Below are positions 7,082 to 32,603 of a stretch of 64,000 bases of DNA, in pieces; position 1 is the stretch's first letter; every line of letters begins with the position of its first letter. The notes under the pieces were generated by a model. The model saw only the letters and a list, made by a program, of their open reading frames with translations. It had not been told where the DNA came from and did not search any database. The DNA lies in assembly GCA_030427585.1 (NCBI GenBank), contig JAUIBW010000029.1, forward strand, positions 1 to 64,000, read 5' to 3'. The translations under genes and the position numbers were made by a program. Source of the stretch: Bacteroidia bacterium. Its GTDB lineage: Bacteria > Bacteroidota > Bacteroidia > Flavobacteriales > Flavobacteriaceae.

Positions 7082-8035
7082 TTAAAAGACTCCTTCGGCA
7101 ATCTTTCTAATATTATCAGATTTACCCATAGAATAATAGTGCAATACAGGAACTCCAAACTCCATCAGTTCTTTAGATTGTTGTATTGCGAATTCGATCC
7201 CTACCTCCCTAACTTCTTTATTGGTTTTACATTTCTCTACTGCTCTCACCAATTCATCAGGCATATCTAATTTAAAGACTTGGGGTAATAATTGTAAATG
7301 TCTTTTTACCGCTACGGGTTTAATCCCTGGGATAATAGGTACATTAATTCCTGCTTCTCTAGCTTTTTTTACGAAATCAAAATATCTTTTATTATCAAAA
7401 AACATTTGGGTCACTACATAGTCTGCTCCCGCATCTACTTTGTCTTTTAATCTTCTAATATCAGAATCTACAGAAGGTGCTTCCATATGTTTTTCCGGGT
7501 AGCCGGCAACCCCTATACAAAAATCAGATTTATTGTCTGTTTCAATCACTTCATGAAGAAATTTTCCTTTATTCATATTCAATATTTGTTCTACCAATTC
7601 ATTAGCATAGCTATGCCCTCCTTTGGTAGGAGTAAAATATTTTTCCTCTTTCATTGCATCACCACGTAAAGCCATTACATTTTCGATTCCCAAATAATGA
7701 CAATCTACCAATAAGTATTCTGTTTCTTCTTTGGTAAACCCACCGCACAACACATGAGGTATTGTATCTACATTGTATTTATGAGTAATCGAAGCACAAA
7801 TACCTACAGTACCTGGTCGCATACGGGTTAGTTTTTTATCTAACAACCCTTCTCTATCGATATAAATAAATTCCTCTCGAGATGTAGTTACATCAATAAA
7901 AGGGGGGTTAAACTCCATTAATGGATCAATATTATCATATAATTCTTGTATGCTTCTTCCTTTTTGAGGTGGTATTAATTCAAAAGAAAACAATGTTTTT
8001 TCTTTGGCTTTTTTTATGTGATCTGTTACTTTCAT
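7082..8035 (-). CDS. metF: Methylenetetrahydrofolate reductase
   Basis: A 317-residue flavoenzyme reducing 5,10-methylene-THF to 5-methyl-THF, the methyl donor for MetH. The N-terminal SFELIPPQKG, the DVTTS motif, LALRGD-like VMALRGD and GAGADYVVTQMFFDN are characteristic. Length fits bacterial MetF. It lies downstream of the split metH on the same strand with a gap of about 390 bases, so it may be partly transcribed from the SAM-I-controlled metH promoter or have its own. Confidence 0.93.
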   Translation of the reverse strand: MKVTDHIKKAKEKTLFSFELIPPQKGRSIQELYDNIDPLMEFNPPFIDVTTSREEFIYIDREGLLDKKLTRMRPGTVGICASITHKYNVDTIPHVLCGGFTKEETEYLLVDCHYLGIENVMALRGDAMKEEKYFTPTKGGHSYANELVEQILNMNKGKFLHEVIETDNKSDFCIGVAGYPEKHMEAPSVDSDIRRLKDKVDAGADYVVTQMFFDNKRYFDFVKKAREAGINVPIIPGIKPVAVKRHLQLLPQVFKLDMPDELVRAVEKCKTNKEVREVGIEFAIQQSKELMEFGVPVLHYYSMGKSDNIRKIAEGVF

Positions 8036-19589: not shown

Positions 19590-20372
19590 TTAAGATACAA
19601 TTTCTTCCTGAACTTCATTATAAATTGAAGCTAGTCGAACTCGTTGGTTTACTACTTCTCCTATTATAATAATGGCTGGCGAGGATAATTCTTTTTCTAA
19701 AACTATTTCCTCAATATTTTCTATTGTACCGTATCCAAACTTCTCTTTTTCTGTGGTTCCGTTTTGGATAATAGCTACCGGAATGTCTTGCTTATTTTCG
19801 GCAGCAAAGATACTAACTATTTCATTCAACTTACTCATTCCCATCAAAATTACCACAGTTGCATTTGATTTTGCTGCCAGGCATATATCCTGTGATAATT
19901 TGTGGGATTTTGTAGTTCCTGTAATCACCCAAAAACTTTCTGAGGACCCTCTTTTTGTTAATGGGATTCCCTGATATGCCGGAACGGCTAAGGATGATGA
20001 TATACCGGGAACCATATAAGACGCTATATCAAACTGTTGCACATAATCAATCTCTTCTGCTCCGCGCCCAAAAATAAAAGGATCTCCTCCTTTTAATCGC
20101 ACTACATGTCCATGACTTTTAGCTCTACTTACTATTAATTCATTAATCTGTTCTTGTTGATATGCATAACATCCTTTTCTTTTACCGACAAATATTTTCT
20201 CTGCTTTAGGTGCATAACTCAATAAGGTTTCATTAATGAGCGCATCATATAACACCACATCTGCAGATTCTAAAGCTTTAATTGCTTTAAGAGTGATCAA
20301 ATCCGGATCTCCCGGACCTGCTCCTACTACTGTTAATTTTGGTGTTCTATTATTCATTATTTCTTTATGCAT
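19590..20372 (-). CDS. cobA: Uroporphyrinogen-III C-methyltransferase
   Basis: A 260-residue SUMT that adds two SAM-derived methyl groups to uroporphyrinogen III to give precorrin-2. Motifs: VVGAGPGDPDLITLKA, VVLYDALI, VRLKGGDPFIFGRG and VPGISS. It begins within the end of the sulfite reductase gene (8-base overlap), so siroheme synthesis is directly coupled to the enzyme that uses it. Confidence 0.93.
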   Translation of the reverse strand: MHKEIMNNRTPKLTVVGAGPGDPDLITLKAIKALESADVVLYDALINETLLSYAPKAEKIFVGKRKGCYAYQQEQINELIVSRAKSHGHVVRLKGGDPFIFGRGAEEIDYVQQFDIASYMVPGISSSLAVPAYQGIPLTKRGSSESFWVITGTTKSHKLSQDICLAAKSNATVVILMGMSKLNEIVSIFAAENKQDIPVAIIQNGTTEKEKFGYGTIENIEEIVLEKELSSPAIIIIGEVVNQRVRLASIYNEVQEEIVS

Positions 20373-22455
20373 TTTCTACTTCAATGGCTCTAAACTCCTG
20401 TACTTTTTGCAAAAATTGTTCTGCATTTTTAATATAATCTACTGCAAAATCTCTGGTAGGTGCATTTTTTTGAAGCTGATAAATCAAATCTGTAAATGTT
20501 CCTTCTAATTGTACTTTTCCGCTTACCACAAATTCTTCATCAAACTGACTTATAATTCTTGCGTGAGTGTTTGTCTTTTTGTTTTCGGCCAATAACAACG
20601 CTTTTGCAGAGTTTACTAATGAGCTGTATGCATGATACACAGCATCTGAGTACACCTCATTCTTAAAAGATATTTTTGCGTTTTCTATTTTCTCTTCACT
20701 TTCTAAGAACAGGGTAGCTATTAAATCTATAACTACTCCAGCACATTCTCCCACGCCAATTGCCTTTACATAATTCTCTTCTGTTCCCCAATCGATAAAG
20801 TCTTCTTGAGTAAGGTTATCTACATTGGATAAATCGGTAAGAAAGTCATAGAAATACTTTTCACCTTGATTTGTGTAGTACTCTATAAAGGTTTTACCAT
20901 TTGCATTTGCTTCAAAATCATTAAGAATCCTGCGTAATGCTTCTGGCCCTCTTCTACTAGGTATTTTCACTACTTTATCTGCAAAACGGCCATTACCATC
21001 TCCCAAATTCCCTCCTCCTAATAGTACTTGTAATGCAGGTGCAACTAATTTATCTTTGGTACGTACGGACATTCCCTGAAAGCCAATATTTGCCATATTA
21101 TGTTGCCCGCAAGCATTCATACATCCGCTAATTTTGATTACTAAATCTTCCTTTTCGAGATATTGAGGGTATTCTGTCTTGATAACACGTTCTAGCTCCT
21201 CGGCAATACCTGTACTACTAGCTATTCCTAAATTACAGGTATCTGTTCCCGGACAAGCTGTTATATCTACTGCTTTGTTATATCCTGATTCTACAAACCC
21301 TAATTTCTCTAATTCCTGATAAAAGAATGGCAACGCATCTTCTTTTACAAAAGGGATCAAAATATTCTGACGCAATGATAGTCGTATCTCTCCTGCTGCA
21401 TATCTCTCTACTAAATCCGCCAGCAACCTGGCTTTATCGGTATAAAAATCGCCTAATAATACTTTAATACCTATAGCTACATACCCTTTTTGTTTTTGAG
21501 CAATTACATTGGTAGATTTCCACAAATCAAAAGCTTTTTGATTTTTGATCTGTACCTGAGGTATTTCGACTTCAACAGGAGTTGATATTTTATATGATTC
21601 TGCATCGATCACAACAGTTTTTTGGGCTATTGCATTTTGTTCTGCTTGTACTAATTCTTTGAACGCTTCAAGACCTATGTCTTTAAGTAAAAACTTCATT
21701 CTTGCTTTGGCTCTACTTTTACGTTCTCCATGGCGATCAAAAACTCTTAATACTCCCTCCATTAAAGGAATGATCTTTTCTGATGGTAAGAAATTATATA
21801 ACTCATCTGCATGTCTTGGTTGCGACCCCAGTCCACCACCTAGCATTACTTTAAATCCTCGAACTCCATTTTCTATTTTAGCAATAAAGCCCAGATCATG
21901 CATGTAAGAAAGCCCGGTATCTTCTTCTGTTCCTGAAAAAGAGACTTTAAATTTACGTCCCATTTCCTGGCAGATAGGATTTCTTAAAAAGAAACGAAAT
22001 AACGCATCTGCATAAGGAGATACATCAAAAGGTTCTTTTGGATCAATTCCTGCAGTTTCTGATGCGGTTACATTACGTACTGTATTACCACAAGCTTCTC
22101 TTAAGGTTACATCATCTTTTTCTAATTCTGCCCAAAGTTCTGGAGTTCTATTTAAATCTACATAGTGAATCTGAATATCCTGACGTGTAGTGATATGCAG
22201 TCTTCCCCTAGAATACTCATCAGAAACTTCGCAAATACGCCTTAGTTGGTTACTCAACACTTTACCATAGGGTAGCTTAATACGAATCATTTGCACTCCT
22301 TCCTGGCGTTGACCATATACACCACGTGCCAAACGAAGGCTACGAAACTTCTCTTCATCAATCTTACCCTCATGAAACTGCTCAATCTTATTAGCTAATT
22401 CTATAACATCTTTTTGAACAATTGGATTTTCTATTTCGGTTCTAAAACTTTGCAT
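20365..22455 (-). CDS. Siroheme sulfite reductase with a C-terminal HEPN-like domain
   Basis: A 696-residue enzyme with the nitrite/sulfite reductase layout: ferredoxin-like and siroheme domains in tandem. The 4Fe-4S/siroheme cysteines are in TACPGTDTCNLG and SGCMNACGQH. The siroheme arginine-rich part is RLHITTRQDIQIHYV. After about residue 585 comes an extra helical part (ENAKISFKNEVYSDAVYHAY...LVNSAKALLLAENK) that looks like a HEPN domain without an evident R-x4-6-H RNase motif. Its place in the cys operon makes sulfite, not nitrite, the likely substrate. Confidence 0.88.
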   Translation of the reverse strand: MQSFRTEIENPIVQKDVIELANKIEQFHEGKIDEEKFRSLRLARGVYGQRQEGVQMIRIKLPYGKVLSNQLRRICEVSDEYSRGRLHITTRQDIQIHYVDLNRTPELWAELEKDDVTLREACGNTVRNVTASETAGIDPKEPFDVSPYADALFRFFLRNPICQEMGRKFKVSFSGTEEDTGLSYMHDLGFIAKIENGVRGFKVMLGGGLGSQPRHADELYNFLPSEKIIPLMEGVLRVFDRHGERKSRAKARMKFLLKDIGLEAFKELVQAEQNAIAQKTVVIDAESYKISTPVEVEIPQVQIKNQKAFDLWKSTNVIAQKQKGYVAIGIKVLLGDFYTDKARLLADLVERYAAGEIRLSLRQNILIPFVKEDALPFFYQELEKLGFVESGYNKAVDITACPGTDTCNLGIASSTGIAEELERVIKTEYPQYLEKEDLVIKISGCMNACGQHNMANIGFQGMSVRTKDKLVAPALQVLLGGGNLGDGNGRFADKVVKIPSRRGPEALRRILNDFEANANGKTFIEYYTNQGEKYFYDFLTDLSNVDNLTQEDFIDWGTEENYVKAIGVGECAGVVIDLIATLFLESEEKIENAKISFKNEVYSDAVYHAYSSLVNSAKALLLAENKKTNTHARIISQFDEEFVVSGKVQLEGTFTDLIYQLQKNAPTRDFAVDYIKNAEQFLQKVQEFRAIEVENA

Positions 22456-22561
22456 TTTTTTTCGTATTTCTGCCTTTAAAAAAGGTCATAGTTATGACTT
22501 TTGTATGATGGTTTTACGGGTTCTATTTTTCTGTTTTTCTTCCTATAAAAAATGACTTCTA

Positions 22562-23809
22562 TTATTCTATAAAGCCAACTCCTGAAGTAGTATTAGTTTG
22601 TGAATCTATTAATATAAATGACCCTGAAGCTTTGTTTTTAACATAAGAGTCAATCGCTAAAGGTTTGCTCAACTGCATCTGAACTTTTCCTATTTCGTTT
22701 AAACTCAAAGCATTTTTTGAAGTATCTTCTCCAGAAAAATCAGTTGCTATGGTTCCGTCTATGCTCTTCACTTTTGCTAGAATTCTATTACTTCCACTTT
22801 GTATAAAATAATTTGTTCCTGGATTTAGGTCTTTACTGTCCATCCAGCATACTGTTGCAGTAAGTTGTTTTTCTACACGAGGTTTTTCTGATGATTTTAC
22901 AATCATATCTCCCCGACTTACATTTACATCATCTTCTAATGTAATTGTACAAGAACTCCCTCTACCTGCAGTATCAAATTTCTGATCGAAAAAGTAAATT
23001 TCTTTTACTTTTGATGTAGTTAATGAAGGCAAAATTGTTACTTCATCCCCAACCGAAAGATCGCCTCCATATAATTTACCTGCATATCCTCTAAAATCAT
23101 GAAATTCATCTTTTTTAGGACGAATTACGGTTTGAATTGGAAAACGTACCTGAGCTTTTTCATATACATCCTGAGCATCTAATTTCTCTAAGTGCTCTAG
23201 TAAAGTTTGCCCGGTATACCATGGGGTGTTCTCAGATTTATCTACCACGTTATCGCCCTGCAATGCACTTACTGGGATAAATGTTATATTCTGTTCTTTG
23301 TAATCGCTTTTTTCGATTAATGTTTTAAAATCGGCTTTAATAGCTTTATATTTTTCCTGAGAAAAATCTACTAAATCCATTTTGTTAACGGCTACAATTA
23401 CGTCTTTAACTCTTAACAGATTATTGATAAAAAAGTGACGATAGGTTTGTTCTATTACACCTTTACGAGCATCTACCAGAATGATAGAGGCTTGTGATGT
23501 CGATGCTCCTGTAACCATATTTCTGGTATATTCGATATGCCCAGGGGTATCGGCTATAATATAACTTTTGGTCTTTGTAGAAAAGTAGATATGGGCAACA
23601 TCTATAGTAATTCCTTGTTCACGTTCGGCTACTAATCCATCTGTAGCCAACGAAAAATCTAAATAATCAAAACCGTTAGCTTTGCTTCTGGTTTCAATGG
23701 CTTCTAATTTATCTGTAGTTAATGATTTAGTATCATATAGAATACGACCGATCAAGGTACTTTTACCATCATCTACACTTCCTGCTGTTGCTATTTTTAA
23801 TACATCCAT
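22562..23809 (-). CDS. cysN: Sulfate adenylyltransferase subunit 1 (GTPase)
   Basis: A 415-residue GTPase from the start at 23809, which gives the typical MDVLKIATAGSVDDGKST; an in-frame ATG at 23851 would add 14 atypical residues. G motifs: AGSVDDGKST, DTPGHIEYTRNM, AVNKMDLVDF. It drives CysD-catalysed adenylation of sulfate by GTP hydrolysis. There is no fused APS kinase at the C-terminus, which ends near VGFIE. Confidence 0.93.
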   Translation of the reverse strand: MDVLKIATAGSVDDGKSTLIGRILYDTKSLTTDKLEAIETRSKANGFDYLDFSLATDGLVAEREQGITIDVAHIYFSTKTKSYIIADTPGHIEYTRNMVTGASTSQASIILVDARKGVIEQTYRHFFINNLLRVKDVIVAVNKMDLVDFSQEKYKAIKADFKTLIEKSDYKEQNITFIPVSALQGDNVVDKSENTPWYTGQTLLEHLEKLDAQDVYEKAQVRFPIQTVIRPKKDEFHDFRGYAGKLYGGDLSVGDEVTILPSLTTSKVKEIYFFDQKFDTAGRGSSCTITLEDDVNVSRGDMIVKSSEKPRVEKQLTATVCWMDSKDLNPGTNYFIQSGSNRILAKVKSIDGTIATDFSGEDTSKNALSLNEIGKVQMQLSKPLAIDSYVKNKASGSFILIDSQTNTTSGVGFIE

Positions 23810-23957
23810 CTTATTTTGGTTGATGGTTAATAGTTTTTTATTGAAGGCCATTTTTATGACTTATAAAAGACTCCCTTACTAATACTATCACCAATTATTT
23901 TGATCCTTAATTTATATCTTCACTAATTATTAGAAAACTAATAACCTGCAATTAATT

Positions 23958-24917
23958 TTAGAAATATCCTTGTTGTTTTCGTTTTTCCATCGCGGCTTCT
24001 GATCGTTTATCATCAATACGGGCTCCTCGTTCTGAAATTGTAGATTCTCTGATCTCTGATACTACTTTATCTATAGTGATTGCATCAGAAAGGACAGCTG
24101 CAGTACATGACATATCACCAACAGTTCTAAAACGCACCATTCTTTCTTCTACCACTTCATTATCCTCTCTATACACCACATCATCTTCGGCAGACCAAAT
24201 CATCCCATCTCTTACGAATGTTTTGCGGGTATGGGCAAAATATATAGACGGAATTTCGATTCCTTCTTTCTGGATATAACTCCATACATCTAATTCTGTC
24301 CAGTTACTAATTGGAAATACTCTTACATTTTGACCTAAATCAATTTTTCCGTTAAGGTGATCAAACAACTCAGGACGTTGGTTTTTCTCATCCCATTGAC
24401 CAAAATCATCTCTAACAGAGAATATACGTTCTTTGGCTCTGGCCTTTTCTTCATCTCTACGAGCTCCACCAATAGCTGCATCAAACTTAAATTCTTCCAG
24501 AGCATCTAAAAGTGTGGTAGTTTGTAAACTGTTACGGCTAGCATATTTTCCTTTTTCTTCTATAACCTTGCCTTGATCAATAGAATCCTGAACGTTACGA
24601 ACAATAAGTTCTACTCCTAATTCTTTAACTAATCGATCTCTAAATTCTATAGTTTCGGGAAAATTATGTCCCGTATCAATATGTAATAAGGGGAAAGGAA
24701 TTTTTCCGGGATAAAATGCTTTCTGAGCTAATCGCACTAAAGTAATAGAGTCTTTCCCTCCAGAAAAAAGTAATACTGGTTTTTCAAACTGTGCTACTAC
24801 TTCTCTAAAAATATAAATTGCTTCACTCTCCAAAGGATTTACCTTAAGAACAGATGCTCCAGCCAGATTACCTGCTGTCCCTTCTAATTGTTCTATTTTC
24901 TTTTCTAGTATTTCCAT
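23958..24917 (-). CDS. cysD: Sulfate adenylyltransferase subunit 2
   Basis: A 319-residue PP-loop ATP pyrophosphatase with LLFSGGKDSITLVRLA at about residue 50, forming APS from sulfate and ATP together with CysN. The C-terminus ends with RIDDKRSEAAMEKRKQQGYF, as in typical CysD. It is placed between cysH and cysN. Confidence 0.94.
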   Translation of the reverse strand: MEILEKKIEQLEGTAGNLAGASVLKVNPLESEAIYIFREVVAQFEKPVLLFSGGKDSITLVRLAQKAFYPGKIPFPLLHIDTGHNFPETIEFRDRLVKELGVELIVRNVQDSIDQGKVIEEKGKYASRNSLQTTTLLDALEEFKFDAAIGGARRDEEKARAKERIFSVRDDFGQWDEKNQRPELFDHLNGKIDLGQNVRVFPISNWTELDVWSYIQKEGIEIPSIYFAHTRKTFVRDGMIWSAEDDVVYREDNEVVEERMVRFRTVGDMSCTAAVLSDAITIDKVVSEIRESTISERGARIDDKRSEAAMEKRKQQGYF

Positions 24918-24938
24918 TCTTATCTTTTTCGTAATTTA

Positions 24939-25565
24939 TTAGTTAGTATGTAACCCACACTCTCTATTCTCCAACACTTTAGTTGGATCAAAATATTTAA
25001 ATTCGTTAGGTAATTTATGTTCTTCTAAATACACATCTAACTCTTCATCACTGTAATAGTAAAACGGGCTTACTTTTAAAATTCCATCTTTACCCATACT
25101 TACAATATCCAGCGAATCCCTAAGCGCTGTTTGCCCTTTTCTAAGGTTTGTAAACCAAACATCGGGAGTAAAATCAGACATTGCTCTTCTAAATGGTTCT
25201 AATTTTACTTGTTCTGTAAAAATTTTGTGTTTGGGATCATCAATATCCGGAATCCCCATAGTTACATCTCTATATGCTGCGGTCTGTTTAGGTACGTATA
25301 ATTTAATATTTAGCCCTAACATATCAATAATCTCTTCTGCATGTCTGTAGGTGTTTGGAGTATTATATCCAGAGTCACACCATATTACTGGAATGTCTGA
25401 TAATGCTTTTGAGCAAACATTAAGAATTGCAGCTTCATATGGTCTAAAATTAGTAGTTACAACAGGAGTCTTTGCTTTTAAAACTGCCCATTGCGTAATT
25501 TCTAAAGGTGTTTTATCCTTTAGAGACTTATTTAAATTTTCTATTTCTTTTTCTGTTAAACTCAT
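24939..25565 (-). CDS. cysH: Phosphoadenylyl-sulfate (PAPS/APS) reductase
   Basis: A 208-residue reductase with IPVIWCDSGYNTPNTYRHAEEI and the catalytic C-terminal Cys in RECGLHTN. I find none of the paired CC/CxxC cysteines that bind the 4Fe-4S cluster in plant-type APS reductases, so it resembles the cluster-free PAPS type. It reduces the activated sulfate to sulfite using thioredoxin or glutaredoxin. No APS kinase gene is seen in this operon (see findings). Confidence 0.88.
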   Translation of the reverse strand: MSLTEKEIENLNKSLKDKTPLEITQWAVLKAKTPVVTTNFRPYEAAILNVCSKALSDIPVIWCDSGYNTPNTYRHAEEIIDMLGLNIKLYVPKQTAAYRDVTMGIPDIDDPKHKIFTEQVKLEPFRRAMSDFTPDVWFTNLRKGQTALRDSLDIVSMGKDGILKVSPFYYYSDEELDVYLEEHKLPNEFKYFDPTKVLENRECGLHTN

Positions 25566-25598
25566 AGCCTACTATACTTGTTTTTTATACTATAGCAA

Positions 25599-25865
25599 TT
25601 ATTTTCCCCATTTAATACGGTTCCAAATTCTTTCGTGAAAAAAATACAGAATCATTTTTGTCACAAAATCAATAGATGCAATCGAAGTAGCAAGAGCGAT
25701 CTCTCCTGTCAACACATAAGACACTATTAACGTATCTAATGTACCTACAACTCTCCAGCTTACTGCTTTTGCGATACTACGTATTGGTTTCTCAGAGGTT
25801 TTATCACCTTGATACGTTGTTTTCTGCGTAGCCACTTTATCTAATATCATTTGATCTAAAATCAT
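25599..25865 (-). CDS. DUF2061 small membrane protein at the head of the cys operon
   Basis: An 88-residue protein with the DUF2061 pattern KPIRSIAKAVSWRVVGTLDTLIVSYVLTG followed by two hydrophobic segments and FFHERIWNRIKWG. The function is unknown. It is the first gene of the operon, 33 bases from cysH. DUF2061 genes are often near sulfate assimilation genes in Bacteroidota, which suggests a link to sulfate or sulfite handling at the membrane. Confidence 0.85.
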   Translation of the reverse strand: MILDQMILDKVATQKTTYQGDKTSEKPIRSIAKAVSWRVVGTLDTLIVSYVLTGEIALATSIASIDFVTKMILYFFHERIWNRIKWGK

Positions 25866-25887
25866 TTTTTTCTACAAAACTCTATTA

Positions 25888-26028
25888 CCCTATCGGAATA
25901 GTAGATTATTAAACAAATGTATATATAATATTTTGTTTATAGCATAAAAATCTCAAAAGTTCTTATAGAAAATCATAAGAATTACGATATCTTTAACAAA
26001 AACCCTAGTAACTTAGTAGATTATTAAA
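25888..26028. repeat. Spaced direct repeat CCCTA-N6-TAGTAGATTATTAAA
   Basis: The block CCCTA, six variable bases, then TAGTAGATTATTAAA occurs at 25888-25913 and again at 26003-26028, 115 bp apart. In both copies CTA-N6-TAG is kept. A partial inverted copy, AATCTACTATT, lies at 26062-26072. All fall in the 335-base divergent gap between the cys operon and the lipoprotein gene at 26201; nothing else is evident in that gap. Confidence 0.6.
25890..25921 (-). promoter_or_regulatory. Promoter box and candidate operator of the cys operon
   Basis: On the minus strand TACATTTG (25914-25921) fits the TAnnTTTG -7 box, placing the start of transcription near 25907. Just inside the transcript lies the palindrome CTATCGGAATAG (25890-25901). 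An operator at about +7 to +18 would suit a repressor. No good -33 TTG is seen at the usual distance, so the promoter may need an activator. I cannot name the regulator. Confidence 0.45.
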
Positions 26029-26200
26029 TCAATCTTTGAATCATTAGATATTTTATTAAAGAATCTACTATTAAACTTTTATTAATTATCCTTAAAAATC
26101 ACATAAAAAGAGATTTCGTCTAGAAAAAATGACAATATGTAAATTTCTAATTCGTTGATGAGTTGATAAAAGTAATATTAACCCAAAATATATAATCGAA

Positions 26201-26740
26201 ATGAAAAGATTTGCAATGCTTTTATGTTTAGCGACTACTTTACTATTTGTTTCTTGCAACAATGATGATGCTCCAATTGAAATTGATCAATCTCTAATCC
26301 CTGGAGAATGGAGTCTCACAGAAGTCAAATCTGAAAATGGAAAAGTTACTGCTACTATCGAAAATATACCTGTGAATGGTGATTATTCTATATCAGGTAA
26401 GGATTATACTGCAGAAGCTATTTTTACAGAAGTTTCTGATGCTACTAAACCCAATACTTTTGTTAGTTCTGGAGGGTTTACATTAGTGGCAAAAATAACT
26501 ATCCCCACACAATCTATTGATTATGAAGAATCAATTCCAGATTTTATTGGAGCAGGAGAGTGGAAAATAGATGGAACTAAATTAATTACTATTGTTGCTG
26601 AAAAAGAAGTGTCGTTTGATATTATGGCATTAACAGCGCAAACTATGAATATAAAAAAAGACATCAAAGAAACGATAGAACAACAAGGAATCGCTTTTGA
26701 AGTTACCGGAAGTCAAATTTTTACTCTCACAAAAAAATAA
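26201..26740 (+). CDS. Small lipocalin-like lipoprotein
   Basis: A 179-residue lipoprotein with lipobox LFVSCNND (Cys19). After a short Asp/Asn-rich linker the sequence LIPGEWSLTEVKSENG and alternating strands ending ITGSQIFTLTKK-like resemble the lipocalin-like domain of Bacteroidota lipoproteins. No function can be given. It is followed by a strong terminator and stands alone. Confidence 0.7.
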   Translation: MKRFAMLLCLATTLLFVSCNNDDAPIEIDQSLIPGEWSLTEVKSENGKVTATIENIPVNGDYSISGKDYTAEAIFTEVSDATKPNTFVSSGGFTLVAKITIPTQSIDYEESIPDFIGAGEWKIDGTKLITIVAEKEVSFDIMALTAQTMNIKKDIKETIEQQGIAFEVTGSQIFTLTKK

Positions 26741-26770
26741 GGTTATAAGCTTCTTAATTCTTTGAATAAA

Positions 26771-26799
26771 AAAACTGAGAAATTTCTCAGTTTTTTTTA
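26771..26799 (+). terminator. Rho-independent terminator after the lipocalin-like gene
   Basis: AAAACTGAGAAA / TTTCTCAGTTTT is a perfect stem running into eight T, about 30 bases after the stop. Confidence 0.9.
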
Positions 26800-26846
26800 T
26801 TTGCTCATTTTCCTAAAACCTGTTTCTATAATCAAAAATACATATT

Positions 26847-26892
26847 CCCCTGTTTACAGGGGTCTACATACTATATTGAAATTTTAAATTTG
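26847..26892 (+). promoter_or_regulatory. Hairpin and possible -7 box upstream of the Cys-rich peptides
   Basis: CCCCTG-ttta-CAGGGG (26847-26862) is a GC-rich palindrome in very AT-rich DNA, and TAAATTTG (26885-26892) fits TAnnTTTG. The distance from palindrome to box would place a bound regulator at the -33 region, where no TTG is visible. The ATG is 88 bases further on. Confidence 0.35.
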
Positions 26893-26979
26893 AGAAACTA
26901 AATTATAGAATTGTTCATTTAACCAATAACACCCCAATTTAAAGGTGCAATTCTATTCATTCTTAAAACAAATTATATT

Positions 26980-27165
26980 ATGAAAAAAATTTTAAACTTG
27001 AGAGGAGTTTCCTTATTAAGTAAAAATGATCAAAGTCAAATTTTGGGTTCGCGCAGCGGGACTCCTTGTTTTCAAAACGGAAATCTGTGTTGTATAGATA
27101 CTGGCAATGGAAGTATCTGTGATACCGGACACTGCCTTCCTAATGGATATTGTCTATTTTCTTAA
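26980..27165 (+). CDS. Cysteine-rich leader peptide A (GG-type, RiPP- or bacteriocin-like precursor)
   Basis: 61 residues. The leader MKKILNLRGVSLLSKNDQ then SQILGS is almost the same as that of the next gene and follows the LSKxEQxxIxG(G/S) pattern of Bacteroidota double-glycine-type leaders, so export and cleavage after Gly-Ser by a C39 peptidase-transporter is likely. The core has six Cys in the order C-x6-CC-x8-C-x4-C-x5-C and ends LFS. No modifying enzyme or transporter gene lies nearby in the window. It may be a disulfide-bonded secreted peptide or a RiPP. Confidence 0.7.
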   Translation: MKKILNLRGVSLLSKNDQSQILGSRSGTPCFQNGNLCCIDTGNGSICDTGHCLPNGYCLFS

Positions 27166-27178
27166 AACAAATTATATC

Positions 27179-27370
27179 ATGAAAAAAATTTTAAATTTAA
27201 AAGGAGTTTCCTTATTAAGTAAAACCGAACAAAGTTCAATCTCCGGTTCGGGAGGAAGAGGTTCTGGCTGTTATCAAAACGGATATCAATGTTGTACCTG
27301 GAGAGGTGGAGTACGTTTATTTTGTGATGCAGGTACATGCATGTCAAATGGGCGTTGTCATTTTATATAA
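27179..27370 (+). CDS. Cysteine-rich leader peptide B (paralogue of A)
   Basis: 63 residues from the ATG at 27179; an upstream in-frame ATG at 27107 lies inside peptide A and is not used in this reading. The leader is MKKILNLKGVSLLSKTEQ then SSISGS, and the core has C-x6-CC-x9-C-x4-C-x5-C. Even the DNA ahead of both ATGs is repeated (AAAACAAATTATAT(T/C)ATG), showing a recent tandem duplication. It is 13 bases from gene A, and both end at a strong terminator. Confidence 0.7.
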   Translation: MKKILNLKGVSLLSKTEQSSISGSGGRGSGCYQNGYQCCTWRGGVRLFCDAGTCMSNGRCHFI

Positions 27371-27391
27371 CCGTAATAATTAATTTTCATT

Positions 27392-27435
27392 AAAAAAAAT
27401 GCTCTGAAAACTGATTTTCAGAGCATTTTTTATTT
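27392..27435. terminator. Bidirectional terminator between peptide B and metZ
   Basis: ATGCTCTGAAAA / TTTTCAGAGCAT forms a 12-bp stem with a CTGA loop, flanked by A-run and T-run, so it can work for the peptide genes on plus and the metY-metZ operon on minus. Confidence 0.9.
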
Positions 27436-27467
27436 TATATCAACACTATTAAGAAGTTTTATAGCTT

Positions 27468-28646
27468 CTATATCTTTTCTAATGCTTGTTCTAAATCCGA
27501 TATAATATCCTCAATATGCTCTAACCCCACAGAACAACGTACCATTCCATCTGTAATTCCAACAACAAGCTTATCTTCATCAGCTAGTTTACTATGTGTT
27601 GTTGAAGCAGGATGTGTAATTATGGTTCTCGTATCGCCAAGGTTAGCAGACAAAGAACACATTTGTACACTATCAAAAAAAGTTTTACCTCCTTGTATCC
27701 CTCCTTTTACTTCAAAGGCAACAATATTACCTCCCATTTTCATTTGCTTTTTGGCAACTGCATATTGCGGGTGAGATTTCAAAAATGGGTATTTTACCCA
27801 GTTTATTTTAGGGTGTGATTCTAAAAACTCTGCTAACTTTAGTGCATTCTCACAGTGACGATCTACTCGAACTGCTAAGGTTTCTAAACTTTTAGACAAT
27901 ACCCACGCATTAAAAGGCGATAGCGATGGCCCCGTGTTACGCGAAAAGAGGTAAATTTCTCTTATCAGCTCTTTTTTACCAACAGTCACTCCTCCCAGAA
28001 CTCTTCCTTGACCATCAATTAGCTTAGTTGCAGAATGAATTACCAAATCTGCACCAAACTTAATTGGATTTTGCAAATATGGAGTTGCAAAACAATTATC
28101 AATAACCAAAAGCAGGTTGTGTTTTTTTGCGATCCCTCCCAACAATTCTAAATCTAAAACATCTACTCCCGGGTTTGTTGGGGATTCGGCATATATAATT
28201 TTTGTATTGGGCTGGATCAAACCTTCTATTTTATCCACCTTATCTACCCTAAAATAACTAGTTTCGATATTCCATTTTGGCAAATATTTGGTAAACAAAG
28301 TATGAGTAGAACCAAATACAGATCGAGCCGAAATAATATGATCGCCAGCATCTAATAACGCAGCAAATGTAGAAAATACGGCTGCCATACCTGTTGCAAA
28401 TGCATACCCGTCCTCTGCTCCTTCTAATTTACAAATCTTATCTACAAATTCTGTTGTATTAGGATTGCTAAAACGGCTATATAGATTTCGTTCTTTCTCT
28501 TCTGCAAAAGAGGCTCTCATCTCTTCGGCATCTTCAAAAACAAAGCCCGAGGTTAAATACATCGGTGTAGAATGCTCTAAAAATTGTGTTTTATCAGTTT
28601 GCGTTCTTACCGCTTGTGTTTCAAAATTTAAACTTTTAAGACTCAT
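27468..28646 (-). CDS. metZ: O-succinyl/acetylhomoserine sulfhydrylase
   Basis: A 392-residue PLP enzyme of the Cys/Met metabolism family. The PLP lysine is in VIHSATKLIDGQGR; the N-terminal YSRFSNPNT and the C-terminal HPASTTHSKL with SVGLEHIEDI are typical. It makes homocysteine directly from an activated homoserine and sulfide. It is last in the SAM-controlled operon and overlaps osmC by 4 bases. Cystathionine gamma-synthase activity is possible, but the operon with metX suggests sulfhydrylation. Confidence 0.88.
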   Translation of the reverse strand: MSLKSLNFETQAVRTQTDKTQFLEHSTPMYLTSGFVFEDAEEMRASFAEEKERNLYSRFSNPNTTEFVDKICKLEGAEDGYAFATGMAAVFSTFAALLDAGDHIISARSVFGSTHTLFTKYLPKWNIETSYFRVDKVDKIEGLIQPNTKIIYAESPTNPGVDVLDLELLGGIAKKHNLLLVIDNCFATPYLQNPIKFGADLVIHSATKLIDGQGRVLGGVTVGKKELIREIYLFSRNTGPSLSPFNAWVLSKSLETLAVRVDRHCENALKLAEFLESHPKINWVKYPFLKSHPQYAVAKKQMKMGGNIVAFEVKGGIQGGKTFFDSVQMCSLSANLGDTRTIITHPASTTHSKLADEDKLVVGITDGMVRCSVGLEHIEDIISDLEQALEKI

Positions 28647-29068
28647 ACTTCTTTATTGTTAACCACTACCTTGTACTCTATTGTAGCTGTAGGTTCTAAT
28701 GTTTTGGATACCGAGCAATATTTCTCAAATGACAATTCTGCCGCTCTCTGTGCTTTTTCTGGAGTAATATCACCTTCGAGATAAACACTTACTGTAATTT
28801 TTTTAAATGGTTTTGCTCCATCAATTTCTTCGCGAGTACCATCTACTTCTGCTCTATAGTCTGTAATTTCCTGTCGTTGTTTCTTCAAAATAGAAATTAT
28901 ATCAATAGCACTACATCCTGCTACTCCCATCAATACATATTCCATTGGACTTGGTGCCTGATCATGTCCTCCAACTTTGGCAGTACTATCTATATAGGTT
29001 ACATGCCCTCTTTCATTTTTTAACTCGAAATGATAATCGTTGTCTATTCTTTTTAGTTGTATTTTCAT
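28643..29068 (-). CDS. OsmC/Ohr-family protein
   Basis: A 141-residue OsmC-fold protein. The conserved cysteine motif is PMEYVLMGVAGCSAIDIISIL, and a second Cys lies in EKYCSVSKTL, the pair used for thiol peroxidase or hydroperoxide reduction. Its place between thrA and metZ suggests a role with sulfur compounds. It may be a redox or persulfide handling partner, but this is inference. Confidence 0.85.
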   Translation of the reverse strand: MKIQLKRIDNDYHFELKNERGHVTYIDSTAKVGGHDQAPSPMEYVLMGVAGCSAIDIISILKKQRQEITDYRAEVDGTREEIDGAKPFKKITVSVYLEGDITPEKAQRAAELSFEKYCSVSKTLEPTATIEYKVVVNNKEV

Positions 29069-29081
29069 TATATATCGTTTT

Positions 29082-29202
29082 GGGCGTTCCCCTAACCAAT
29101 TAGGGGTCGGGCTTTCAGCTATATCTTTTATAATCTAAAAGCCTTTCGATACTATTCTAGGCTAACAGGATTATAAAAGGATGCCACTTCAATCCCTAAC
29201 GC
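29082..29202 (+). repeat. Structured dispersed repeat, copy 1 (osmC-thrA gap)
   Basis: The 121-bp element opens GGGCGTT and closes AACGC, so the ends pair (GCGTT/AACGC). Inside are CCCCTAA-ccaa-TTAGGGG, then CGGGCTTTCAGCTATATC, a long stem ATCTTTTATAATC / GATTATAAAAGGAT with an inner AGCCT/AGGCT stem, and ATGCCACTTCAATCCCTAACGC as the tail. The 3' half is shared with the copy at 53193-53289. I recall that similar elements are widely scattered in Flavobacteriaceae; whether this one equals an Rfam motif such as Flavo-1 cannot be decided here. Confidence 0.6.
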
Positions 29203-29212
29203 AATTATTATT

Positions 29213-31627
29213 TCATCCTTTTTCTGCTAATCGTAAGACATCTCCAAACACTCCTCTTGCTGTTACGGCTGCTCCGGCACCAGCTCCCTGAATTACGATA
29301 GGTTGATCGCCATATGATTCTGTATAAATCTCGAATATAGAGTCGGAACCTTTTACTTGTCCTAACGCACTACTTTGAGGTACAGAAACTAATTTAACAT
29401 CCAAATTTCCTTTCTCTTGTGACAAATCACCCCAAAGATCACCAATATATCGCAATACATGATCAGGTTTTTGTTCTTCTTTAACTTTTTTATAAACAAC
29501 GTCTAATTCTTTTAGTCTTTCTAAAAACTCTTTTGCTTCTCCAGCCCTTAGTTCTTCAGGAATTAGATTATGAATATTAATATCTTCAAATTCGTTGCTT
29601 AAATCCAATTCCCTTGCTAGAATTAATAATTTTCGTCCTACATCATTACCACACAGATCTTCTCTAGGGTCAGGCTCAGTAAACCCTTTATCAATTGCCT
29701 CTTGCAATACCTCACTAAACGGTCGTTCTTCTACAGAAAAAGTATTAAATAAGTAACTTAATGACCCAGAGAAAACTCCTTTAATTCGAGTTATATTCTC
29801 TCCCGACAAATGCAGTAACTTAATAGTATCAATCAACGGTAATCCAGCTCCTACATTAGTTTCGTACAGATATTGTTTTTGATTTTCATCTAGTTTAACT
29901 CTTAATTTCTTATAAAAATCAAAACTTAATGTATTGGCTACTTTATTAGAGGATACCAAATCAAAACCATGTTCTACCAAATTGATATAGTTTTCTGTAA
30001 ACTCCTGACTAGCTGTATTATCAATAGCGATTAGGTTTTCTAAATGATGATCATCTGCAAATCGAATCACATCTTCTACTGTATATGCAATTCCTTTTTC
30101 ATCGATAGCATTTTTCCAGTTTTGCGCTACCCCGCTTTTATCTAAGAGTACTTTCTTAGAATTTGCTACTGCAAAAATATTGAGGTTGATCTTTTTTCGT
30201 TTTTCGATCTGTTCTGAAGATTTTAAGATTTGATCTATCAACGTGCCTCCTACTAATCCATGACCAAATATGGCTATATTGATTTTTTTAGAAATTTCGA
30301 AAATCTCACCATGAATCACATTTAAGGCACGATGTAATTGTTCTTTTCGCACCACCAAACTCACATTTTTTCCTGTAACCGTATTATTAAACAATAATGG
30401 GATTACCTGATTCTTAATCAGTGCATTATATGGCTTATGAAATGTACTTAGATCCTGGCCAATAATAGAAATCACAGAGACGTCTTTTTCTATCGAAATA
30501 CCACTAACATCACGTTTATAAAAATCTGATTCGAATTCTTGCTCTAATATAGATTTGGCTTCTTTTGCTTTATCGGCTTCAACAACAAAACCTATCCCCC
30601 TTTCTGATGAACCTTGCGAAATAATACTAACACTAATATTTTTATGGGCTAGTGCTTTAAATATTCTTGCATCTACTCCTACTTTTCCCAAAAGCCCTCT
30701 TCCTTCGAGATTGACTAGAGCTACATTTTCTAAAACAGAAAGAGATTTGATTCCTTTTTCACTCGGTTCAGATGTAATTAGAGTTCCTTTATTTTTATGA
30801 TCAAAAGTATTTAAAATCCTTAGCGGGATATTCTTTTCTATTAATGGGATTATTGTTTTTGCATGTAAAATATTAGCTCCAAAATATGCTAATTCATTAG
30901 CCTCTGTAAATGATAGCTTCTCAATTTTTATAGCATTGGGTACTAAGTCTGGGTTTGCTGTATAGATCCCGTTTACATGAGTAAAACTTTGTAATTCTTC
31001 TGCTTCTAGATAATTTGCTAGCAATGATGCAGTATAATTACTTCCATTTCTTCCTAAAGTGGTCGTTTCATTTTTGGTATTAGACGCTATAAAACCTGTG
31101 ACTATATTTACCGTAGCCCCATTATATGTTTGAAAATGATTAATTACATTTTCTTTGGATAGTTTATCGAGAGGCTGGGCATCTCCAAATTGGGCATCTG
31201 TGATAATAAGGGCTCTACTATCGGTAAAATTAGCTCTGATGTTTTTTTCTTTAAGAATTTGCGTTACCAATTTGGCCGAAATAACTTCGCCCTGTGATAG
31301 TACTTGATCTTTTATCCTCTTACTATAGTCTCCTAAAAGTGAAACTCCTTCAAAAAGTTTGTCTAATGTTTCGAACTCCTGGTTAAAATCAGCATTATTA
31401 AAATCTGCAATTTGATATTTTTTAAGTGCTTCTAGTTGTTCCTGGTATTCTTTTCCCTTAACAGCTTTTTCAAGAATTTCTTCAAGCTCATCGGTTGTAT
31501 TACCACGAGCAGAAAGGACAACGGTAATCTTTTCACCATTTTTAACCTTATCTTCAATTATATCTATCACTGCATGAATTCCTTTTCCGTTAGCAAGTGA
31601 TTTCCCTCCAAATTTTAAAACTTTCAT
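29213..31627 (-). CDS. thrA: Bifunctional aspartate kinase / homoserine dehydrogenase
   Basis: About 804 residues from the start at 31627 (MKVLKFGGKSLANG); an ATG at 31651 would add eight residues and overlap metX. The kinase half has KFGGKSLANG and TTLGRNGSNYTASLLA, the middle holds ACT repeats (VALVNLEGRGLLGKVG), and the dehydrogenase half has IAIFGHGLVGGTLIDQ for NAD(P) and ITRIKGVFSGSLSYLFN. It converts aspartate to aspartyl phosphate and the semialdehyde to homoserine, the acceptor for MetX. It is in the middle of the metY operon. Confidence 0.94.
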   Translation of the reverse strand: MKVLKFGGKSLANGKGIHAVIDIIEDKVKNGEKITVVLSARGNTTDELEEILEKAVKGKEYQEQLEALKKYQIADFNNADFNQEFETLDKLFEGVSLLGDYSKRIKDQVLSQGEVISAKLVTQILKEKNIRANFTDSRALIITDAQFGDAQPLDKLSKENVINHFQTYNGATVNIVTGFIASNTKNETTTLGRNGSNYTASLLANYLEAEELQSFTHVNGIYTANPDLVPNAIKIEKLSFTEANELAYFGANILHAKTIIPLIEKNIPLRILNTFDHKNKGTLITSEPSEKGIKSLSVLENVALVNLEGRGLLGKVGVDARIFKALAHKNISVSIISQGSSERGIGFVVEADKAKEAKSILEQEFESDFYKRDVSGISIEKDVSVISIIGQDLSTFHKPYNALIKNQVIPLLFNNTVTGKNVSLVVRKEQLHRALNVIHGEIFEISKKINIAIFGHGLVGGTLIDQILKSSEQIEKRKKINLNIFAVANSKKVLLDKSGVAQNWKNAIDEKGIAYTVEDVIRFADDHHLENLIAIDNTASQEFTENYINLVEHGFDLVSSNKVANTLSFDFYKKLRVKLDENQKQYLYETNVGAGLPLIDTIKLLHLSGENITRIKGVFSGSLSYLFNTFSVEERPFSEVLQEAIDKGFTEPDPREDLCGNDVGRKLLILARELDLSNEFEDINIHNLIPEELRAGEAKEFLERLKELDVVYKKVKEEQKPDHVLRYIGDLWGDLSQEKGNLDVKLVSVPQSSALGQVKGSDSIFEIYTESYGDQPIVIQGAGAGAAVTARGVFGDVLRLAEKG

Positions 31628-31640
31628 TTTTTCTTTTTCT

Positions 31641-32603
31641 TTAAAACACATCTTTCAATAATGCATTCAATTGTTCAAATTCTATTAAAAAGGCATCGTG
31701 ACCATGAACCGAGTTAATTATGTTATGAGTAACATTTTGTTTTACTCTTTTCAGTTTTTTAAATGTAACTCTATCTTCTTCCGCTGTAAAAAATATATCA
31801 GAATCTACACTGATGATATGAATATTGGATTGGATTGATGCGGCTACTTCATTAAAATCTCCACGTCCTTCGGTTATATCTATATTTGCCAGGATATGAT
31901 TTAGTTCCTTATACGCAGAAAGCGCAAATCTACCATCTAGTTTTTCTCCGTGATACAATAGCCAGCTCTCTATATTATACATATCTTTCTCGTCGTTATA
32001 AGTGCGATTAAATTTTTGCTTAAATGATTCTGGAGATCTATAGATCAACATGGCATGTAATCTGGCATCATGAACAGGGTTTTTAGAATTCAATAAAATC
32101 TGTTCTTGTACCAAACAATTGGCTTTTAACCAATCTGTAGATTTCCAATCTGCAGCCACCGGGATTAGGTGAGTAATTAAACTGGGATTAAGAGCTGCTA
32201 ATTCCCATGCAATTCCCCCACCGACCGATCCTCCAATTACAGCATAAAGTTTATCAATGTTCAATAGTTTTAGCCCTTCAGAGAAAATTGCAGCAATATC
32301 TCGTGCATTAAACATTTGATACTCTTCAATTAAGTTGTCTTCTTTTCTATCATATCCATTTCCAGGAATATTAAAGGATAGAATGGTATATCTATTGGTA
32401 TCAATACACTTATTTTCTCCTATCAAACCATTCCACCAACCATACTCTCCACACACAGTAGAATTACCAGTAAGTGCATGGTTAACTAAAACAATTGGTG
32501 CTGTATAAAGAGGCTTCCCAAATACTTCGTATGTGAGACAGAGCTGATCAATAGATCTTCCCTTTATCGTGGCATAATTTAAGATGTCTAATTCTTGAAG
32601 CAT
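31641..32603 (-). CDS. metX: Homoserine O-acetyltransferase-like alpha/beta hydrolase
   Basis: A 320-residue alpha/beta hydrolase. The nucleophile elbow is VIGGSVGGGIAWE, the oxyanion part VNHALTGNS, and the acid/base pair lies in SVDSDIFFT and SVHGHDAFLIE. These are the MetX landmarks. It activates homoserine with an acyl-CoA for MetY/MetZ. It is somewhat shorter than classical MetX (about 350-380 residues), so the acyl donor is not certain. It sits between metY and thrA. Confidence 0.85.
   Translation of the reverse strand: MLQELDILNYATIKGRSIDQLCLTYEVFGKPLYTAPIVLVNHALTGNSTVCGEYGWWNGLIGENKCIDTNRYTILSFNIPGNGYDRKEDNLIEEYQMFNARDIAAIFSEGLKLLNIDKLYAVIGGSVGGGIAWELAALNPSLITHLIPVAADWKSTDWLKANCLVQEQILLNSKNPVHDARLHAMLIYRSPESFKQKFNRTYNDEKDMYNIESWLLYHGEKLDGRFALSAYKELNHILANIDITEGRGDFNEVAASIQSNIHIISVDSDIFFTAEEDRVTFKKLKRVKQNVTHNIINSVHGHDAFLIEFEQLNALLKDVF

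Follow-up and report, generated by a model that had tools for sequence, protein, structure and literature searches.

Six-cysteine peptides with double-glycine-type leaders in Aquimarina and Tenacibaculum: a family of probably exported and disulfide-bonded products

The 64,000-nucleotide stretch considered here (positions 1 to 64,000, forward strand, of contig JAUIBW010000029.1 in the Bacteroidia bacterium assembly GCA_030427585.1, Flavobacteriaceae; hereafter the window) carries a tandem pair of short genes whose products are members of a large family, six-cysteine peptides with export-type leaders. The family is of a known general kind, and we regard its existence as a sound finding; unusual are the mostly unlinked position of its genes and a cysteine that moves between two places in the core. 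Judged against titles and the starts of abstracts in the open-licence PMC literature, the family is apparently undescribed. The genes, the register of their leaders, the extent of the family, the selection acting on the pair, the co-occurrence of the family with candidate processing enzymes, and relatives lying near such enzymes are reported below as observed. From these we infer, with antagonism as the least certain element, a scheme that we consider rather probable, namely that the peptides are exported, disulfide-bonded and probably antagonistic. The two genes would make up a small operon, each encoding the precursor of a secreted disulfide-rich peptide, and the leader would be recognised as a double-glycine leader by a remotely encoded peptidase-containing ATP-binding cassette transporter (PCAT), the best candidate being the one at position 137508 of contig C37 (C37:137508) with its HlyD-like neighbour. 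The PCAT would cut after G23-S24, freeing cores of 37 and 39 residues; the six cysteines would then form three disulfides, with an inner-membrane VKOR-thioredoxin protein (the copy on contig C41) as the most likely oxidant, and the mature peptides would probably act outside the cell in an antagonistic, bacteriocin-like manner.

The gene pair and the extent of its family

An earlier sequence-only reading had described two adjacent genes with near-identical leaders and diverged six-cysteine cores, and this description holds at the exact coordinates listed here.

26885..26892, plus strand: promoter-like TAnnTTTG box, TAAATTTG, 87 nucleotides upstream of the first ATG
26960..26979, plus strand: 20-base sequence before the first ATG, of which 19 bases recur at 27159-27178
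26980..27165, plus strand: gene 1, open reading frame of a 61-residue precursor
26980-27051, plus strand: gene 1 leader, 24 codons, ending G-S
27052-27162, plus strand: predicted mature core of gene 1, 37 residues, six cysteines (stop codon 27163-27165)
27159..27178, plus strand: second copy of the pre-ATG sequence, overlapping the 3' end of gene 1, stop codon included
27179..27370, plus strand: gene 2, open reading frame of a 63-residue precursor, ATG at 27179
27179-27250, plus strand: gene 2 leader
27251-27367, plus strand: predicted mature core of gene 2, 39 residues, six cysteines (stop codon 27368-27370)
27394..27431, plus strand: intrinsic-terminator-like hairpin of 17 pairs with a T tail, 3' of gene 2

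The two leaders are identical at 19 of 24 positions, with Q18 and the G23-S24 ending in both, and the cysteine pattern first proposed, C-x6-CC-x8/9-C-x4-C-x5-C, is exactly what the cores contain, the spacings being 6-0-8-4-5 in gene 1 and 6-0-9-4-5 in gene 2. Calculated average masses for the two predicted mature peptides are 3863.3 and 4216.7 Da with three disulfides, or 3869.3 and 4222.8 Da when reduced. Only 13 bases separate the genes, and the repetition of the DNA before the two start codons, also noted earlier, is real (19/20 bases), the overlap of the second copy with the end of gene 1 being as expected from tandem duplication. The TAnnTTTG box, which we take to be the Bacteroidota -7 consensus, stands at the same place in all five syntenic relatives (as TAAATTTG in four and TAAGTTTG in one), and six terminator-like sites occur between 26700 and 27500 (0.2 in shuffles), among which the hairpin after gene 2 has the most pairs and two others overlap each other inside gene 1. 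With a promoter-like box upstream and a strong terminator-like hairpin downstream, the pair looks like one transcription unit.

Five syntenic Aquimarina regions were fetched for having a match, so that the occurrence of gene 1 at the same place in all five follows from the selection of the regions; all five keep the same flanking neighbours (86-100% identical proteins), and gene 2 is present in three. One more candidate region, L064, turned out to hold the main array. The pooled ratio of nonsynonymous to synonymous substitution (dN/dS), taken from pairwise counts in which the pairs are not independent, is 0.16 for gene 1 (six sequences; leader 0.15, core 0.16) and 0.10 for gene 2 (four sequences with few changes). 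Both genes are thus under purifying selection, cores included, and the earlier picture of a conserved leader joined to a diversified core is right for the divergence between paralogues but not for any present diversifying selection. Conserved position and purifying selection, together with eight members in the window genome and a family that spans the genus, argue that the pair is more than a chance occurrence.

Around the pair, genes for sulfur assimilation and methionine lie together at window positions 20365-32603 (sulfite/nitrite reductase-like, CysN, CysD, CysH-like, O-succinylhomoserine sulfhydrylase-like, OsmC-like, aspartokinase-homoserine dehydrogenase and MetX-like, several of these matches lying below curated cut-offs), in a block that recurs in five relatives and runs on the strand opposite to the pair; a regulatory tie of the peptides to cysteine supply is possible. 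The gene at 26201-26740, for a putative lipoprotein whose lipocalin-like match is borderline, lies upstream on the strand of the pair, is separated from it by a terminator-like hairpin and is kept in the five syntenic relatives; a protective role for it would be only a guess.

The eight members in the window genome are the window pair, four in tandem on contig C56, one on C5 and one on C33. Beside the C56 array lies a leaderless core remnant with five cysteines (G000:C56:64511-64615, minus strand; about 7512-7616 in locus L019), which we read as a decaying family member. Across the genus Aquimarina, 42 of 52 genomes match at E <=0.001 and 39 at E <=1e-10. A single genome has as many as 36 matches, some of them to other peptides that share the leader. 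Among 58 Tenacibaculum genomes, 8 match at E <=1e-9. Homologues with the same leader and cysteine pattern, which the sequence-only reading had proposed to look for, are accordingly found across the one genus and in the other. A scan of named genomes gave 49 loci, 35 in Aquimarina and 14 in Tenacibaculum. Counts beyond these two genera are lower bounds: at least 15 of 397 sampled genomes of the taxonomic family match at E <=1e-6 among the candidates scored per genome (three Aquimarina, one Tenacibaculum and eleven others, the last sharing mostly the leader alone, with L136 keeping the same core pattern), and core-only searches at order and phylum level (395 genomes each, the same genomes in both) found the family in at least the window genome and two Tenacibaculum. 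From 201 peptides at E <=0.001, 142 distinct ones scoring over 50 bits were retained for comparison.

As to surroundings, 34 of the 35 named Aquimarina array loci adjoin an endonuclease I gene (in L019 with a Por secretion tail), 27 have ackA/pta-like genes nearby (named by eye), and all 14 Tenacibaculum loci lie between a nucleoside transporter gene and thyA/DHFR-like genes (thyA/DHFR named by eye); in both genera, then, there is a nearby gene that could serve nucleic-acid or nucleoside scavenging. We read these settings, and that of the window pair among sulfur-assimilation and methionine genes, as separate resting places rather than as functional partners.

Leader, candidate exporter and candidate oxidase

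The leader pattern used for scoring, which requires glycine at -2 and bars it at -6 and -5, fits 132 of 140 peptides and dropped eight. Glycine at -2, Gly, Ala or Ser at -1 and hydrophobic residues at -4, -12 and -15 constitute the double-glycine register, and among the 132 leaders position -2 is glycine throughout (as the pattern requires), -4 is Ile, Val or Leu in 132, -12 is Leu in 130 and -15 is Val, Ile, Phe or Leu in 131, while position -1 is Ala in 85, Ser in 26, Gly in 12 and Thr in 6. The family leaders thus fit the double-glycine register, an odd position -7 apart, and the label of GG-type leader given earlier is apt for the register though not for the letters, both window leaders ending in G-S.

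The sequence-only reading had seen no transporter or modifying enzyme nearby and had proposed a precursor family served by a remote exporter. On the window contig (C48) there is indeed no C39 peptidase and no VKOR homologue at the thresholds used, which covers these two kinds of protein, other kinds not having been searched over the whole window; the remote exporter is favoured, as far as sequences can tell, by the leader register, the homologues elsewhere, three C39 matches over cut-off in the window genome that all lie on other contigs, and relatives encoded near a PCAT and a VKOR enzyme. Matches to PF03412 at E <=1e-10 occur in 48 of the 52 genus genomes, and eleven genomes combine a peptide match with exactly one PCAT. 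Ten of these were fetched (G006, G017, G023, G024, G026, G028, G038, G043, G048 and G051; the eleventh, G047, is 55% complete and has one weak peptide match), and all ten carry an orthologue of the C37 PCAT at 71-73% identity, each adjoining an HlyD-like gene (named by eye). An orthologue is present in every fetched single-PCAT peptide genome, and we favour the PCAT at C37:137508, together with its HlyD-like neighbour, as the candidate for a shared exporter. The linked C39 transporter that the earlier reading suggested looking for is absent from the window contig at the thresholds used. In the Aquimarina genome G008 (locus L186) a further PCAT, 47% identical to that on C37, has two six-cysteine relatives some 1.1 kb downstream.

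Each strong PCAT of the window genome sits in a RiPP-like locus of its own (ribosomally synthesised and post-translationally modified peptide; genes read from sequence): a LanB-type locus with many GG-leader precursors on C50 (L031), a LanC-like one on C56 (L030) and an ATP-grasp/SPASM-like one on C37 (L032). Beside the shared PCAT in L165, L166, L167, L170, L171 and L174 there is another cysteine-containing leader family (MKKSEILKKIK.., ending in ITGGY or variants), accompanied by a partner protein some 425-432 residues long; L165, L166, L167 and L174 have a VKOR copy as well.

The protein encoded on C41 has 529 residues; its VKOR and thioredoxin domains score above the Pfam cut-offs, its C39-like N-terminus below. 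All six of its cysteines (193, 201, 268, 271, 381 and 384) belong to the first two of these parts, which leaves the C39-like one without a catalytic cysteine, and it would be inactive; a VKOR-type oxidant with a dead C39-like domain may possibly be a leader-recognising foldase. A diverged VKOR copy on C50 reads with one stop. Leader-related peptides flank the C41 protein and its counterparts in several relatives, and in the Aquimarina genome G016 (L185) a six-cysteine relative spaced 6-0-9-4-4 stands about 110 bases past a diverged VKOR-C39-like enzyme. On C41 itself (L026, 8395-12220) several other leader-sharing peptides surround the enzyme; four of these are short, nearly identical and free of cysteines (VVGG.. 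then ..DPLTNEPV.DL..).

Peptides and enzyme also occur in the same genomes. Counting genomes with both, with peptides only, with the enzyme only and with neither, and ignoring relatedness, any VKOR-C39-like homologue gives 42/0/2/8 over the 52 genomes (p 6e-8) and 39/0/2/5 in those at least 90% complete (p 1.5e-5); with strong peptide matches only (E <=1e-10) the counts are 39/0/5/8 (p 1.7e-6) and, in a second strong-match count, 38/0/3/5 (p 4e-5), and with the closer VKOR orthologue only they are 38/4/1/9 (p 1.8e-6). Any PCAT gives 42/0/6/4 (p 8e-4) on the same scheme. From this co-occurrence and the neighbouring genes we infer that the VKOR-thioredoxin enzyme makes the disulfides of the peptides.

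Several observations weigh against the scheme as a whole. Position -7 is glutamine in 124 of 132 leaders, whereas it is usually hydrophobic in double-glycine leaders elsewhere; no exporter, VKOR or recognisable immunity gene adjoins the window pair; and no NCBIfam or Pfam family names these peptides, the two window peptides having no match in either at E <=10. The p values for co-occurrence with VKOR leave the kinship of the genomes out of account, VKOR homologues occur without peptides in G003 and G039, and peptide matches occur without the closer VKOR orthologue in G013, G017, G023 and G037. As for the exporter, the association with any PCAT falls to p 0.15 in genomes at least 90% complete, and G003 carries an orthologue of the C37 PCAT without a peptide match. 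The peptides in L186 do not directly adjoin their PCAT, a possible 98-residue minus-strand open reading frame lying in the intervening 1.1 kb, and on the core alone they score poorly (E 0.0045 and 0.017 at Z=10000), so that their kinship rests on leader and cysteine pattern. Finally, 3 of the 42 matching Aquimarina genomes (G013, G022 and G047) match weakly (E 1e-7 to 2e-4), perhaps by the leader alone.

Two cysteine layouts

Six core cysteines are present in 140 of the 142 distinct peptides, a rule that is partly by construction, the profile itself including the cysteines; Tenacibaculum sp. M341 supplies the two exceptions, which have four, and the number is even in all 142. The order noted in the window, which is that of both window cores, is not the order of the whole family: the adjacent pair stands first (CC-C-C-C-C, layout A) in 83 of the 140 six-cysteine peptides and second (C-CC-C-C-C, layout B) in 57. 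The commonest spacings, 0-5-9-4-5 in layout A (23 peptides) and 5-0-9-4-5 in layout B (28 peptides), are of equal length and differ in a single cysteine, at position 2 in A and at position 7 in B when numbering starts at the first cysteine. Loop lengths vary in other members, and a gapped alternative would align the third cysteine of A with the second of B. All 21 six-cysteine peptides of Tenacibaculum have layout B; Aquimarina arrays often hold both layouts side by side, and by locus 23 of the 35 have both, 11 only A and one only B.

A tree of the 140 peptides built without the first loop (55 columns, with 69 of 136 inner branches unresolved) calls for five layout changes, compared with a mean of 44.6 for shuffled labels, and at least two of the five are forced by well-supported branches. 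The two four-cysteine peptides lack, as read by eye, both the fourth cysteine and one member of the pair, a joint loss which hints that those two bond with each other. We tentatively suggest, as a possibility that we hold well below the export scheme, a single scaffold with three disulfides and five fixed cysteines, the sixth standing on one side of the first loop or the other (position 2 or 7) with the same partner from both; an Aquimarina strain would then release a mixed set of peptides, all for one shared PCAT, and the VKOR-thioredoxin protein may recognise their common leader through its dead C39-like domain. AlphaFold2 models of cores of the two layouts are small and four-stranded, with middling confidence (pLDDT 73 and 79). 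Fold searches of the PDB with the two models returned nothing better than E 3.4, and further fold comparison of the type A model gave no Z >=2 among 58 chains. A fungal antifungal protein (PAF) that headed one fold list at E 4.4 is not evidence of anything, and the best PDB sequence profile matches (E 8.4 and 0.084) were rejected.

Alternative readings and known systems

That the peptides use the same export route but serve as signals, as double-glycine pheromones do, is in our view unlikely: small size and leader would suit it, purifying selection on the core suits a receptor-matched ligand, and no immunity gene was recognised among the neighbours, yet neither was any receptor or regulator among the recurrent neighbours (25 clusters listed, mostly judged by eye), and the matches run to 36 per genome. 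Many copies per genome and three-disulfide cores are unusual for pheromones. Somewhat less probable again is a eukaryotic target (algae, invertebrates or fungi), on the model of the cystine-rich toxins of animals and fungi. Aquimarina and Tenacibaculum do live on marine hosts, and the size, the charge (mean +1.9) and three probable disulfides in a modelled small beta fold would accord with it; against it, the fold searches of the PDB described above gave nothing better than E 3.4, and the cysteine order is unlike that of inhibitor cystine knots.

We consider it improbable that the cores are modified RiPPs, carrying lanthionines or other rings made by a remote enzyme. LanB/LanC-like and ATP-grasp/SPASM-like genes do adjoin the PCATs on C50, C56 and C37, and among 34 members there are weak matches to a grasp-with-spasm precursor model (two) and a class I lanthipeptide leader model (one), but the precursors of the C50 locus carry a different leader and the recurrent neighbours of the arrays included no recognisable modifying enzyme. 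Lanthionines, which the sequence-only reading had allowed as a modification, are unlikely because 18 of the 132 mature cores contain at most one Ser/Thr, the mean being 3.8 per core for six cysteines. The least credible reading, to which we give very little weight, makes the peptides carriers or stores of metal, bound through the cysteines; cores of 37-39 residues with six cysteines, two of them adjacent, would suit it. The export-type leader, the co-occurrence with the VKOR enzyme and the even number of cysteines in every peptide (six in 140, four in two) all point to disulfides instead. Should the preferred reading of exported, disulfide-bonded antagonists be true, these marine bacteria hold a large set of disulfide-rich peptides overlooked by cluster-based mining, which would miss the family because most of its genes lie away from exporter and enzymes, and the family would offer a natural series for how a disulfide scaffold tolerates the moving of one cysteine.

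Among known systems, class IIa bacteriocins such as pediocin have a double-glycine leader, a C39 exporter and disulfides made with a disulfide accessory protein; they are Gram-positive products with a YGNGV motif and two to four cysteines, none of which holds for the present family. Knottins (inhibitor cystine knots) likewise have six cysteines within about 35 residues, in the order C-C-CC-C-C, from which both layouts found here depart, as the sequence-only reading had said of the window cores; the PDB fold searches gave no fold match. Lanthipeptides differ in their dehydratases and cyclases, neither being recognised among the recurrent neighbours. The leader bears a likeness to NF047798 (leader_Chryseo, bacteriocin-like protein), to which 16 of 34 members match at E <=1 (best E 0.011), weak matches alone, with none for the two window peptides at E <=10; 4 of 34 match PF14406 (Bacteroid_pep), also weakly and not significantly (best E 0.042).

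The closest comparison is with the bacteroidetocins, proposed as class IIf bacteriocins (Coyne et al. 2019, PMC6671954). They too come from Bacteroidota and have a short precursor, a glycine-ended leader and a small cysteine-containing mature peptide (42 residues in bacteroidetocins A and B); they have a C39-type ABC exporter and a thiol oxidoreductase thought to make the disulfides, a likeness that our scheme proposes for the present family; and they have no obvious immunity gene (PMC6671954), as none is recognisable beside the window pair. Their leaders have 15-16 residues and end in GG, in contrast to 24 residues here and an ending that is G-A or G-S in 111 leaders and G-G in 12, out of 132; they have four cysteines (A and B) or at least two, as against six; and their peptide gene is linked to those of an exporter, a membrane protein and mostly an oxidoreductase (PMC6671954), a linkage not seen here, there being no C39 or VKOR match on the window contig and none recognised beside the main arrays. 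Killing has been shown for bacteroidetocins (PMC6671954), whereas the present family is known from its genes and is compared with them by description rather than by sequence. Differing in leader length and ending and in the linked gene set, the family is not a member of the bacteroidetocins; it is nearest to them in kind, a likeness that by analogy favours antagonism, and our own reading is that it would work as they do.
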